This document shows positions 7,232 through 22,652 of a stretch of 64,000 nt of DNA, piece by piece. The notes below the pieces were generated by a model. The model had not been told where the DNA came from. It was given only the letters and a program-made list of their open reading frames with translations, and ran no database searches. The stretch comes from an uncultured Pelagibacteraceae bacterium (lineage in GTDB: Bacteria; Pseudomonadota; Alphaproteobacteria; Pelagibacterales; Pelagibacteraceae). The stretch's first letter is position 1. Each line of letters starts with the position of its first letter. The DNA is taken from positions 1-64,000 of the forward strand of contig CACOYX010000004.1 in the NCBI GenBank assembly GCA_902631535.1. The letters run 5' to 3'. A program made the translations under genes and the position numbers.

Positions 7232-8389
7232 ATGACTACGAAATTAAATGTTCTCCAAGTTATTCCTAAACTTGGTTATGGTGGCGCAGAAACAGGTTGT
7301 TATGATATTGCACATTTTCTTCCAGAGAATGACTGTGGATCTTTTTTAGCAACTTCTGGAGGAGAACTTCTTAAATTTGTGAAAAAAGATAAAGTTAAGT
7401 TAATTAGGTTACCAGTACACTCCAAAAATCCTTTTTTAATAATATTCAATACCCTGATGTTAATTTTTTTTATTATATTTTATAAAATAAATATTATACA
7501 TGCACGAAGTAGAGCACCGGCTTGGTCATGTTATCTAGCTTCTTTAATAACAAGGAGAATTTTCGTAACAACGTTCCATGGAACTTATAATTTTAAGAGT
7601 AATCTTAAAAAATTTTATAATAGCATTATGCTTCGAGCAAAATTAACTATCGCAGGATCTAATTTTATTTTTGGCCACATTAATGAAAATTATAGCGAAT
7701 ATTTAAGTAAGGGAAAAAAACTAAGAGTAATTTTTAGAGGTATCAATATTGATTATTATAATTCTCAAAATATTTCAGTACTTAAACAAGAAAAACTTAA
7801 ACAAGAATGGGGTCTAGCATCAAACAAATTTACTATACTTTTACCAGGAAGATTAACTTACTGGAAAGGACAAGAAAAATTTATAGAGTCTCTAAATATA
7901 CTAATTGAAGATTATAATATCACAAACTTTCAAGCGATAATACTTGGGTCAGATCAAGGTAGAAAAGTTTACTCTAAGAAATTGAGTAATCTTGTTCAAA
8001 GATATAGTTTAAATAAAAAAATTAAGTTCATTCAACATTGTAACGAAATGCCTCTTGCTTATTCTCTAGCTGATGTGGTGGTTTCGGCTTCGATAGAACC
8101 CGAGGCATTCGGCAGAGTTTCAGTGGAAGCTCAATCAATGGGCAAGCCAATTATTGCTAGCAATATTGGCGGTTCGAAAGAAACAATTATCAATAAAAAA
8201 ACAGGATTTTTGTACAAGCATGACGATCCTAGAGAACTTGCTAAAAGTTTAAATACTGTTATTCAATTATCACAAGATGAATTAAAATCTATAGGAAATG
8301 AGGGTAGAAAAAATATTACCAAAAAATTTGATGTTGAAACAATGTGCCAATCTAATTTAAAAGAGTATAGAAGATTAATTAAAAATTAA
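7232..8389 (+). CDS. Glycosyltransferase, GT4-like (GT-B fold)
   Basis: A 385-aa glycosyltransferase. The N-terminal donor/acceptor motif LGYGGAETGCYDIA is at about residues 13-26. The C-terminal family 1 domain has LLPGRLTYWKGQEKFI and the retaining-transferase motif EPEAFGRVSVEAQ at about 289-301. A hydrophobic stretch near residues 66-83 (NTLMLIFFIIFYKINII) suggests membrane association. The likely role is adding a sugar to a surface glycan or lipid; donor and acceptor are unknown. It ends in a one-base TAATG overlap with thrS, so the two are probably cotranscribed although functionally unrelated. Confidence 0.85.
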   Translation: MTTKLNVLQVIPKLGYGGAETGCYDIAHFLPENDCGSFLATSGGELLKFVKKDKVKLIRLPVHSKNPFLIIFNTLMLIFFIIFYKINIIHARSRAPAWSCYLASLITRRIFVTTFHGTYNFKSNLKKFYNSIMLRAKLTIAGSNFIFGHINENYSEYLSKGKKLRVIFRGINIDYYNSQNISVLKQEKLKQEWGLASNKFTILLPGRLTYWKGQEKFIESLNILIEDYNITNFQAIILGSDQGRKVYSKKLSNLVQRYSLNKKIKFIQHCNEMPLAYSLADVVVSASIEPEAFGRVSVEAQSMGKPIIASNIGGSKETIINKKTGFLYKHDDPRELAKSLNTVIQLSQDELKSIGNEGRKNITKKFDVETMCQSNLKEYRRLIKN

Positions 8390-20201: not shown

Positions 20202-20291
20202 GGAGAGGTGGCCGAGTGGTTGAAGGCGCACGCTTGGAAAGCGTGTAAACGGGAAACCGTTTCGAGGGTTCGAATCCCTCTCTCTCCGCCA
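20202..20291 (+). tRNA. tRNA-Ser (anticodon GGA)
   Basis: Class II tRNA with a long variable arm. The acceptor GGAGAGG pairs with TCTCTCC (20281-20287, one G-U), followed by discriminator G and an encoded CCA (20289-20291). The anticodon stem CACGC/GCGTG holds loop TTGGAAA with anticodon GGA at 20236-20238. The T-loop region is GGGTTCGAATCCC. It reads UCC/UCU serine codons. It lies at the left border of an accessory-looking stretch. Confidence 0.97.
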
Positions 20292-20359
20292 TTAATTTAA
20301 CCCAAAAAGGACAACGACCGCTTTTGTTAGATTTTGATTGATCTATAAATAATTTTTTG

Positions 20360-22168
20360 ATGATAAAATTATTTAAAATATTTTTAATCTTTATTTATTT
20401 GATATCGTTAAGGCAAGTTAATGCTGCCAATATAACAGGTTCAAACACAATAAATAGTGACTCAACTACCCAACAAGTTTACAATGCAGATGATACTTCA
20501 TTAACAATTACAAACTCATCAACGTTATCAAGAACTGGTCAAAGTACAGTCAATATAAATACAAAAACAAATGGAACTTTAACAATAAATTCTGGCTCTT
20601 CAATTACAGCTACCTCTCACAATACAGTTCAAGGTAGAAATCAGGATGGATTGACTGTGACTAACTCAGGAACAATTAGTTCTGGCGGATCGAAAGCAAT
20701 AAATTTATTAAATGCTCAAAACTCTACAGTTACAAATAATTCTGGAGGAATTATAAAAAGTAATACTAACACTGTTACTCTTACCGAAGATGGAGGAACA
20801 GGAAACAATGTTACAATCACTAACTCAGGACAGATTTTTGCTGAAGCTGTTAGCTCAGGTACAACTAATAATAATGCTGTTAAGTCTGAGGACGATACTA
20901 ATAATATGACTCTAACAAATAATGCTGGGGGACATATATATAATAATAATTCCTCCGCAACTGCTTTACAACAAGCAACAGTTTTTATTGCTGCCGAAGA
21001 CACTGCAACTTTGACTAACAGTGGAAAAATTGAAAATAAAGCAGGCCCAGAAAATTTTGCTATTGGAATAGCCGGAAGTGGTGTGACCGTAACTCTAAAA
21101 GATTCAGGAATAGTAATTGGTAAAATTAACGTAGCTGACTCAGGTCATACTATAAGATTACAACATGGTGCTGGACAAGGTTACTACTATGATATTACTG
21201 GAAGCGGTACTTACACTTTGCAGGATCTTGACGGCAATCCAGTTGTTAAAGGTTCAGCAGGATCCGTTGGTCAAGGTGGAAACGAAATGGTAGATGAGGA
21301 ACTAGGATACAGATCATTAAGTTTTAGAAATTCTCTTGTTAGATACCAACAAAGTGATGAATTTTCTGAAAGAGATAAGGGATGGGGTGAGATTACAACG
21401 TCTTTTTTAAAAAGAGATGGAGATAATAGCACTTTAGCACTGGATAATGAAAAAATAGGTATAGGAGCAAATATTTTTGAACCAATTTCAAATGATAAAA
21501 CTCTTATTTTTTCTTTTGAAACTAGTTTGCAAAATATTTCTAAAAGCCACGAAATCGATAAGTTTAGTTTTTTAACGGGAGTAAATTTTAATAAAATTGA
21601 AATTAGTGATGGAATAAATTCAGAAATATATATTTTAGGTGGAGCTAGCTTTAATAAAAGCGAAAGAAATATTTTAACAAATACTACGTCGTCTGGATTG
21701 CTAGATATATCTGATGAATACATGAGTTATGAGGTTTTAACTGGAAAAAAGATAAACTTTAACAATTTATTACCTGATCTAAGTTTTAATTTTGGTTACT
21801 CACATACACCGTCTCATGAAGAAAGCAAATATTACAACTGGGATGATAGAGATGTTTACAACGGATCTATAGCCTTAAGTAATGAACATCAAATTTTAAG
21901 AAATAAAAAAAATAATTTATATTTTTCTTGGGTAGCTGATGCTAGAACAATATTAGATGATAATGTGCAAATCTTTTATGTAAATAGCACAAAAGGATCT
22001 TATACTCAGAACAATGATTTAAAGACTGAATTTAGTTTATCTGCTGGTTTAAATTACAATTACAATTTTTCAAAAAATAGTAAATTTTCAATGAGTCTAG
22101 ATGGACTTCAAACATCTCAAGACACAAGCGGAATTCAAGGAAACTTAAAATATAGTCATAAGTTTTAA
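20360..22168 (+). CDS. Secreted autotransporter-like protein (beta-helical passenger plus C-terminal barrel)
   Basis: About 602 aa from the ATG at 20360; an alternative TTG precedes it. A signal peptide is clear (KLFKIFLIFIYLISL, likely cut after VNA near residue 22). Residues about 23-290 are Ser/Thr/Asn/Gly-rich with repeated units such as LTITNSSTLS, VTITNSGQI and ATLTNSGKI, as in right-handed beta-helix passengers. Residues about 310-602 show alternating amphipathic strands and end in Phe (KYSHKF), like an outer-membrane autotransporter barrel. No protease motif is visible, so an adhesin or surface role is inferred. It stands alone between tRNA-Ser and small membrane genes. Confidence 0.75.
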   Translation: MIKLFKIFLIFIYLISLRQVNAANITGSNTINSDSTTQQVYNADDTSLTITNSSTLSRTGQSTVNINTKTNGTLTINSGSSITATSHNTVQGRNQDGLTVTNSGTISSGGSKAINLLNAQNSTVTNNSGGIIKSNTNTVTLTEDGGTGNNVTITNSGQIFAEAVSSGTTNNNAVKSEDDTNNMTLTNNAGGHIYNNNSSATALQQATVFIAAEDTATLTNSGKIENKAGPENFAIGIAGSGVTVTLKDSGIVIGKINVADSGHTIRLQHGAGQGYYYDITGSGTYTLQDLDGNPVVKGSAGSVGQGGNEMVDEELGYRSLSFRNSLVRYQQSDEFSERDKGWGEITTSFLKRDGDNSTLALDNEKIGIGANIFEPISNDKTLIFSFETSLQNISKSHEIDKFSFLTGVNFNKIEISDGINSEIYILGGASFNKSERNILTNTTSSGLLDISDEYMSYEVLTGKKINFNNLLPDLSFNFGYSHTPSHEESKYYNWDDRDVYNGSIALSNEHQILRNKKNNLYFSWVADARTILDDNVQIFYVNSTKGSYTQNNDLKTEFSLSAGLNYNYNFSKNSKFSMSLDGLQTSQDTSGIQGNLKYSHKF

Positions 22169-22182
22169 AGCAACGAAGAAAA

Positions 22183-22241
22183 GACTCATAATGCACACAT
22201 AAATACTTATAATTCCTTATAAAAAGAGTTCATTATGAGTC
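22183..22241. repeat. Long-loop perfect inverted repeat, 11-base arms
   Basis: Arms GACTCATAATG (22183-22193) and CATTATGAGTC (22231-22241) are exact reverse complements, 37 bases apart. The dyad flanks the TATAAT at 22208-22213. The right arm contains the ATG of a 13-codon leader ORF. It could be an operator, or the end structure of the upstream autotransporter mRNA. The right arm can alternatively pair with GACTCGT at 22268-22274. Confidence 0.5.
22208..22213 (+). promoter_or_regulatory. Candidate -10 box (TATAAT) for the small membrane protein leader
   Basis: A consensus TATAAT lies about 140 bases upstream of the small membrane protein start, inside the loop of the inverted repeat. No good -35 is seen at the expected distance (CTCATA), so this is a weak call in AT-rich DNA. 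If used, transcription would begin near 22220 and pass through two short ORFs and a terminator-like hairpin. Confidence 0.35.
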
Positions 22242-22310
22242 GCTTAGTTCCTTTTCTAGTGTTGGTAGACTCGTGAAATGATAAAAGTTCGTAATTCAAA
22301 GCGAATGTGA
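22235..22310 (+). promoter_or_regulatory. Leader with two short ORFs ahead of a terminator hairpin
   Basis: Two tiny ORFs lie in the leader. One is 13 codons, MSRLVPFLVLVDS (22235-22276). The other is 10 codons, MIKVRNSKRM (22278-22310), whose UGA stop begins in the loop of the terminator hairpin and ends on the first base of its 3' arm. A ribosome on the second ORF would cover the 5' arm of the hairpin. This geometry is what translation-coupled attenuation requires. No diagnostic run of one amino acid's codons is present and neither ORF has a strong Shine-Dalgarno, so this is inference. Confidence 0.3.
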
Positions 22311-22326
22311 TTCGTTTTGATTTTTT
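22296..22326 (+). terminator. Intrinsic terminator or attenuator upstream of the 71-aa membrane protein
   Basis: The stem TCAAAGCGAAT (22296-22306) pairs over 11 bases with ATTCGTTTTGA (22310-22320), with one G-U pair and a 3-base loop. TTTTTT follows immediately. It ends only about 22 bases before the ATG at 22349, leaving little room for another promoter. The downstream gene is therefore probably expressed by read-through or conditional antitermination. Otherwise the hairpin ends a separate small RNA. Confidence 0.7.
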
Positions 22327-22348
22327 ATTAATAAAAAAGGGGGAGAAC

Positions 22349-22564
22349 ATGAAAGCAATCTCAGGATTAACTTCAATGTTTGACAGCTTAACAAAAGTAG
22401 TGGTTTCATTGCTTGCGTTAGGTATCGCTGTAAGTCTGTTAGGTGGAAATGTTCCATTTGTAGGCGAAATAGCTACTAACATTATTGGTTTAGTACAATC
22501 TTTAGGTGATGCAGGTATAGTTGGATTAATCGCAGCTATTATCATCTTAAACTTGTTTAAGTAA
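22349..22564 (+). CDS. Small two-helix membrane protein of unknown function (paralogue A)
   Basis: 71 aa. The start at 22349 is chosen because GGGGGAG sits just upstream, a rare strong ribosome-binding site here; a longer reading from 22307 would run through the terminator. Two hydrophobic helices (about residues 17-32 and 52-69) flank the loop GGNVPFVGEIATN. It is clearly homologous to the protein encoded at 22653: NVxFxG, a conserved Thr, and LG-[DE]-x-G-[IV] are shared. I do not recognise the family. It is followed by its own terminator-like hairpin. Confidence 0.8.
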   Translation: MKAISGLTSMFDSLTKVVVSLLALGIAVSLLGGNVPFVGEIATNIIGLVQSLGDAGIVGLIAAIIILNLFK

Positions 22565-22573
22565 TAAACAACT

Positions 22574-22602
22574 AAAGCTACTTCCCTCGAATTAGCTTTT
22601 TA
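22574..22602 (+). terminator. Terminator-like hairpin after small membrane protein A
   Basis: AAAGCTA (22574-22580) pairs with TAGCTTT (22593-22599) around a 12-base loop, running into TTTTTAT. It lies 10 bases after the stop codon. A short stem, so moderate confidence. Confidence 0.5.
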
Positions 22603-22606
22603 TATA

Positions 22607-22634
22607 GCCGCCCTAAGTTTATAATTAGGGCGGT
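22607..22634 (+). promoter_or_regulatory. GC-rich hairpin just upstream of small membrane protein B
   Basis: CCGCCCTAA and TTAGGGCGG form a perfect 9-base stem, extended by a G-U pair (arms 22607-22616 and 22625-22634), with loop GTTTATAA. Such GC density stands out in this sequence. It is followed by AAAAAAA rather than T, so it is not a classic plus-strand terminator. It lies 5-6 bases before the AAGGA ribosome-binding site of the next gene, where it could stabilise a processed mRNA end or control translation. Confidence 0.55.
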
Positions 22635-22652
22635 TAAAAAAAGGAAAAAATT

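Follow-up and report, generated by a model that had tools for sequence, protein, structure and literature searches.

A 166-nt leader in a SAR11 genome (Pelagibacteraceae) was found to carry a hairpin whose pairing is conserved among relatives and which contains a GANTC methylation site close to a predicted transcription start. We consider it rather probable that the leader combines a GcrA/CcrM-marked promoter with a short transcribed leader protected by its 5′ stem-loop, both functions being read from the sequence. The conserved hairpin together with the GANTC-bearing leader suggests that the mRNA is protected, and the gene may be tied to the cell cycle. Comparison among relatives established the covariation of the stem, its spacing to the −10 element, the near-invariance of the YGAKTCG heptamer and the presence of genes for GcrA, CcrM and RNase E.

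The locus and its two small membrane-protein genes

The window analyzed, the whole stretch of 64,000 nucleotides, belongs to a single genome of 893 kb, and its features are listed in Table 1. The leader comparison covered 45 leaders from Pelagibacteraceae (this genome and 44 relatives), which come from related sequences and are not independent of each other. Genome-wide site counts were made by pattern searches.

Table 1. Positions of the leader elements and neighboring genes in the window
Feature	Position	Strand	Remarks
tRNA-Ser(GGA)	20202..20291	+	ARAGORN; directly before the leader in many relatives
Autotransporter-like ORF, TTG start, 1.8 kb	20357..22168	+	ORF list; between tRNA-Ser and leader
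DNA motif copy 1, GACTCAnnnTGnAC	22183..22196	+	Minus strand reads TGAGTCT (a YGAKTCK) at 22182-22188
DNA motif copy 2, opposed to copy 1	22228..22241	-	Overlaps TGAGTCG (YGAKTCG), 22236-22242, + strand
Third GANTC site, CGAGTCT	22267..22273	-	About 10 nt before the −10 hexamer; GANTC there in close relatives too
Predicted extended −10 element, TGATAAAAG	22279..22287	+	Transcription start predicted at about 22294
Stem-loop I, 11 bp	22296..22320	+	The terminator of the initial annotation; predicted to begin at about +3 of the mRNA; covariation; z −4.2
TGATTCG, GcrA-type YGAKTCG with CcrM site GATTC	22308..22314	+	Within stem-loop I
Weak stem-loop II, TTTTTTATTAATAAAAAA	22321..22338	+	T-tract pairs with the A-tract preceding the Shine-Dalgarno sequence (fold)
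Shine-Dalgarno sequence of gene 1, GGGGGAG	22339..22345	+	Sequence
Gene 1, small membrane protein of 71 aa	22349..22564	+	First of two tandem genes
Intergenic hairpin A	22574..22599	+	CCCUC (anti-Shine-Dalgarno-like), 22584-22588, at the loop
Intergenic hairpin B, strong, 12 bp	22605..22636	+	Before gene 2; folds
Gene 2, paralogue of gene 1, 78 aa	22653..22889	+	28% identity to gene 1

The autotransporter-like ORF upstream of the leader matched no entry in Pfam or NCBIfam, and it is missing from this place in the relatives whose tRNA-Ser adjoins the leader; in other relatives neither the tRNA-Ser nor this ORF lies upstream. Since the upstream neighbor varies among relatives, the leader belongs to the small gene and not to the upstream gene. 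The interval 20202-22168 is probably a variable site: in this genome an autotransporter-like adhesin ORF separates tRNA-Ser(GGA) from the leader, and many relatives have the two side by side.

The pair of gene 1 and gene 2 was found in 40 of the 397 genomes sampled from the family and in most of those sampled from a sister family, the tandem arrangement being kept in nearly all relatives with gene 1. More distant homologues, in one or two copies, were detected in 40 of the 385 genomes sampled across the class Alphaproteobacteria. No family in Pfam, NCBIfam or PHROGs was matched, and the AlphaFold model (three helices, mean pLDDT 70) gave no match in PDB. Judged from these homologues, the two genes represent an unclassified and uncharacterized membrane-protein family spanning Alphaproteobacteria. 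Its members are 70-80 aa long and also occur in marine phage contigs (L095:4938-5162 and L098:3806-4048), the L095 copy adjoining capsid-assembly-like genes.

A covarying stem-loop in the leader

The initial annotation had described a strong intrinsic terminator in front of gene 1. The hairpin at 22296-22320, followed by six T residues (to 22326) and located 22 nt before the ATG at 22349, is indeed present in the sequence and is referred to here as stem-loop I. None of 200 shuffled sequences folded as well. The arms of the stem are completely different between genera yet remain paired (TCAAAGCGAAT..ATTCGTTTTGA, ACTACCGAA..TTCGGTAGT and GCTATCGA..TCGATAGC). Pairing holds in 90% of the cells across 34 distinct stems. 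Changes on both sides were counted in 79 cells; no shuffle out of 500 gave more than 41, and no slid version more than 35. Because MAFFT misplaced the 5′ arm in leaders with differing loops, the pairs were counted on rows anchored by structure, and shuffles, slides and foreign arms served as controls. The foreign-arm control was included because the 5′ arm had been chosen to pair; the pairing score was 18.5 for the own arm versus 9.3 ± 4.6 for arms of other leaders. The family leaders fold with a mean z of −2.8 and are individually significant in 70% of cases; the corresponding values for other genes in the family are −0.06 and 7%.

Except for the GANTC heptamer, pairing rather than sequence is conserved, as in a 5′-terminal stabilizing stem-loop. 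The compensatory changes that the initial annotation had proposed to look for are thus found in this second hairpin, and the conserved cis-acting RNA structure that it suspected does exist. Weak Rfam matches below threshold were off-strand or implausible, and the element is absent from the structured RNAs of Ca. Pelagibacter ubique described in the consulted passages of PMC2704228. A metabolite-binding riboswitch or other sensing RNA would fit a covarying structure in the 5′ UTR and a group known for compact riboswitches (PMC2704228), but the element is a single short hairpin with no Rfam match at the gathering score, and its only conserved unpaired sequence is the GANTC heptamer, in which inversion is tolerated; the probability of such a sensor is slight.

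Different small palindromes are carried by other genera at the position of stem-loop II. The leaders of the neighboring family f2 form no significantly strong hairpin, and the extension of the strong hairpin to f2 and to other Alphaproteobacteria was rejected, since similar hairpins are visible by eye there but do not fold clearly better than chance (mean z about −0.75).

Phasing of the stem-loop to a predicted extended −10 element

The extended −10 core TGNTA precedes the stem by 16-18 nt in 39 of the 45 leaders, against a background of 1.2% per position. With this fixed spacing and the usual distance from a −10 element to the start, the stem is predicted to begin at +2 to +4 of the mRNA in 39 of 42 leaders. 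The −35 element of this predicted promoter is weak. A promoter scan of the region gave a single hit, TTTAAA-17-CATAAT at 22164-22192, where 2.4 are expected by chance.

The TATAAT sequence pointed out earlier inside the inverted-repeat region is present at 22208-22213 but is found in this genome alone of nine leaders, and the scan did not pick it up. A separate RNA of about 100 nt starting near 22220, as had been considered, finds no conserved promoter and is not supported.

The spacing also bears on whether stem-loop I, with its T6, is an intrinsic terminator that ends read-through from the autotransporter gene or the tRNA-Ser, the gene 1 promoter overlapping or following it. In this genome the stem and T6 are of the classic type, one terminator-like site being observed where 0.1 is expected in shuffles, and a run of four or more T follows the stem in 16 of the 45 leaders, mostly those of genera g1 and g5. 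In the other 29 leaders, however, the stem is kept without the T-run, and it is kept whether tRNA-Ser, the autotransporter gene or other sequence lies upstream. It is phased to the −10 element 17 nt upstream, and its T-tract can pair with the following A-tract. That the T-tract was simply lost was rejected, because a relaxed criterion (at least 5 T in 8 nt) still gives 33 of 45 leaders, compared with 16 of 45 for the strict run of at least four. We regard termination as a doubtful alternative; in genera g1 and g5 a real terminator is possible, given the T-run.

GcrA-type methylation sites in the leader

GANTC is under-represented in the window, with 104 sites observed and 179 expected. Four of these sites are clustered within the 166-nt leader, all in the form YGAKTCK on one strand or the other (starting at 22182, 22236, 22267 and 22308). 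The density of GANTC in the family leaders is 13.8/kb, as against 1.7/kb elsewhere. In the 893-kb genome, YGAKTCG occurs 40 times, as compared with 150 for the reversed control, and two of the 40 are in the leader. When 39 YGAKTCG sites were examined for hairpins, the site at 22308 stood far above all others with a score of 24, the next being 16. Another CGATTCG, at G000:C2:7162-7168, looks intergenic and lies about 430 bp downstream of gcrA (7590-8024, minus strand).

The hairpin includes YGAKTCG on either strand in 44 of the 45 leaders, at about +16/+17 in most and at +8 to +13 in the rest, including those with inverted loops. Inverted loops retain the site, as seen between L038 and L040, in L006/L007 and in genus g5. 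Because an inverted loop is a different RNA, the persistence of the site through inversion points to selection at the DNA level. The hairpin loops of L038 and L040 are exact reverse complements (CGAATCACTTCG/CGAAGTGATTCG), apparently through inversion mediated by the stem itself. In the leaders of family f2, GANTC is almost absent and no hairpin site is found, though GcrA is encoded. Since f2 has the genes and GcrA without the site or a significantly strong hairpin, the arrangement characterizes a single family and is not required by the gene. In another alphaproteobacterial family (L130, L133 and L134), GANTC sites surround a TTGACA promoter of the same small gene, possibly by independent acquisition.

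Both GcrA (PF07750, E 3.5e-40) and CcrM (RAMA domain, E 2.7e-16) are encoded in the genome, and a gene of the RNase E/G family is present. In Caulobacter, GcrA sites are more typically located at or between −35 and −10. YGAKTCG has been reported as the extended motif of methylated promoters that GcrA activates, with sites counted from −40 to +40, and GcrA sites downstream of promoters can activate (PMC7987155). The leader, with YGAKTCG at about +16 from the predicted start, falls within this range of 40 bp. Methylation of GANTC in vivo has been reported for Pelagibacter, together with an enrichment of the motif between genes (PMC9516812), and CcrM is present in SAR11 (PMC3973325).

The upstream inverted repeat

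The perfect 11-base inverted repeat noticed at the upstream end of the leader is present, GACTCATAATG at 22183-22193 being followed by its exact reverse complement at 22231-22241, as read directly from the sequence. It consists of two opposed copies of GACTCAnnnTG. GACTCANNNTGNAC has two matches in the whole genome, both in the leader. As an RNA, this first hairpin folds at z = −4.5 with 0 of 200 shuffles folding as well. GACTCA and TG never vary among the nine leaders of the close group, while positions 7-9 do, mostly breaking pairs with no compensatory change. An RNA stem was rejected on this ground, and the repeat is therefore interpreted, from its pattern of variation, as DNA sites. The orientation and spacing of the GACTCAnnnTG pair are conserved in genus g1, and in L006/L007 related motifs occur in another order.

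The whole leader might likewise be a purely DNA-level operator, the hairpin and the upstream repeat both serving as protein-binding sites and the RNA fold being incidental. The near-invariant GANTC heptamer, in either orientation, and the constant arrangement of the motif pair in g1 would fit such an operator. Outside the heptamer, however, the arms differ completely between genera yet pair, and one leader of family f1 (L073), which has lost the site, retains the 11-bp stem. We thus judge this explanation unlikely and prefer a marked promoter followed by a protective stem-loop.

Leader peptides and the attenuator model

The initial annotation had further proposed that ribosome position on two mini-ORFs decides the formation of the hairpin. 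Mini-ORF 1 (22235-22276, 13 codons) and mini-ORF 2 (22278-22310, 10 codons) are both present, the latter with its stop codon in the loop of the second hairpin. The alternative pairing of 22235-22241 with 22268-22274 also exists, but as a consequence of GANTC sites that are complementary to each other. Mini-ORF 1 is not conserved; across nine leaders (this genome and eight close relatives) its length in codons is 13, absent, 13, 19, 3, 3, 3, 3 and 19. Mini-ORF 2 has its start codon within the conserved −10 element and so would not be part of the predicted transcript.

A ribosome-position attenuator with two leader peptides is therefore very unlikely, next to negligible in our estimate: this genome does have the mini-ORFs and the alternative pairing, but neither mini-ORF 1 nor the TATAAT is conserved, the first stem breaks without compensation and most relatives have no T-run. 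The model was rejected for want of a conserved leader ORF and of conserved mutually exclusive stems ending in a terminator.

Hairpins between gene 1 and gene 2

At the place of intergenic hairpin A, a CCUCC-like motif was found in 35 of 44 relatives, mostly in the loop, against a background of 7% of 60-mers; its stems change between genera. Equivalents of hairpin B, of about 12-14 bp and mostly without a T-tract, occur in nearly all relatives. The arrangement of these two hairpins looks like one for differential expression of gene 1 and gene 2. The pattern of hairpin B resembles operons with segmental mRNA stability. The hairpin before gene 2 in family f2 (L009) seems to contain the Shine-Dalgarno sequence of that gene.

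For hairpin A only, Cuckoo-type sRNAs of Alphaproteobacteria with CCUCC loops are presumably a candidate likeness, since in both a small ORF is followed by a hairpin whose loop is anti-Shine-Dalgarno-like. Hairpin A differs in its shorter loop motif and its single copy.

A model of leader function

From the leader sequences we infer the transcription start, GcrA binding, methylation at the leader and protection of the mRNA. RNA polymerase would start at about 22294 from the extended −10 promoter (TGATAAAAG). The GcrA-type GANTC sites, which CcrM would methylate and of which the one at 22308 would be among the first bases transcribed, probably give GcrA access to this promoter, and transcription may depend on replication-linked methylation. 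The mRNA would open almost at once with the 11-bp stem-loop, most likely keeping RppH and RNase E off the 5′ end, and the transcript would thereby be long-lived. The weak second hairpin and an open Shine-Dalgarno sequence would then precede gene 1.

Protection from RppH and RNase E by a stem-loop at the mRNA start is described for ompA and papA of E. coli (cited in PMC3997798). There, likewise, the stem lies a few nt from the 5′ end, a position predicted here, and is followed by an open ribosome-binding site. In contrast, the ompA and papA stem-loops need no GANTC heptamer, whereas the SAR11 stem carries one, and its distance from the 5′ end refers to a predicted start. With the GcrA/CcrM promoters of Caulobacter and Brevundimonas (PMC3667746, PMC7987155), the leader shares YGAKTCG/YGAKTCK near the promoter, the presence of GcrA and CcrM genes and the rarity of GANTC in the genome. 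It differs in that the most conserved site is downstream of the predicted start (about +16) and inside an RNA stem, and in that Pelagibacter is reported to be without a CtrA orthologue (PMC2877005). Within the same clade, cis RNA elements of Ca. Pelagibacter ubique were likewise found by comparison (PMC2704228).

There is a small chance that all of these elements act jointly, the stem-loop and the GcrA/CcrM mark coupling replication to an unusually stable mRNA and the intergenic anti-Shine-Dalgarno hairpin setting the ratio of the paralogues. If so, the locus would represent a control unit of epigenetic-plus-RNA type that is as yet unreported in SAR11. These bacteria rank among the most abundant groups in the ocean, and no mapped targets of their CcrM and GcrA were found in the literature searched. 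The near-invariant GcrA-type site at one promoter provides a concrete place at which to examine GANTC control in SAR11. The leader also marks a family of small membrane proteins, without Pfam, NCBIfam or PHROGs match, that is found in Alphaproteobacteria and marine phage contigs.
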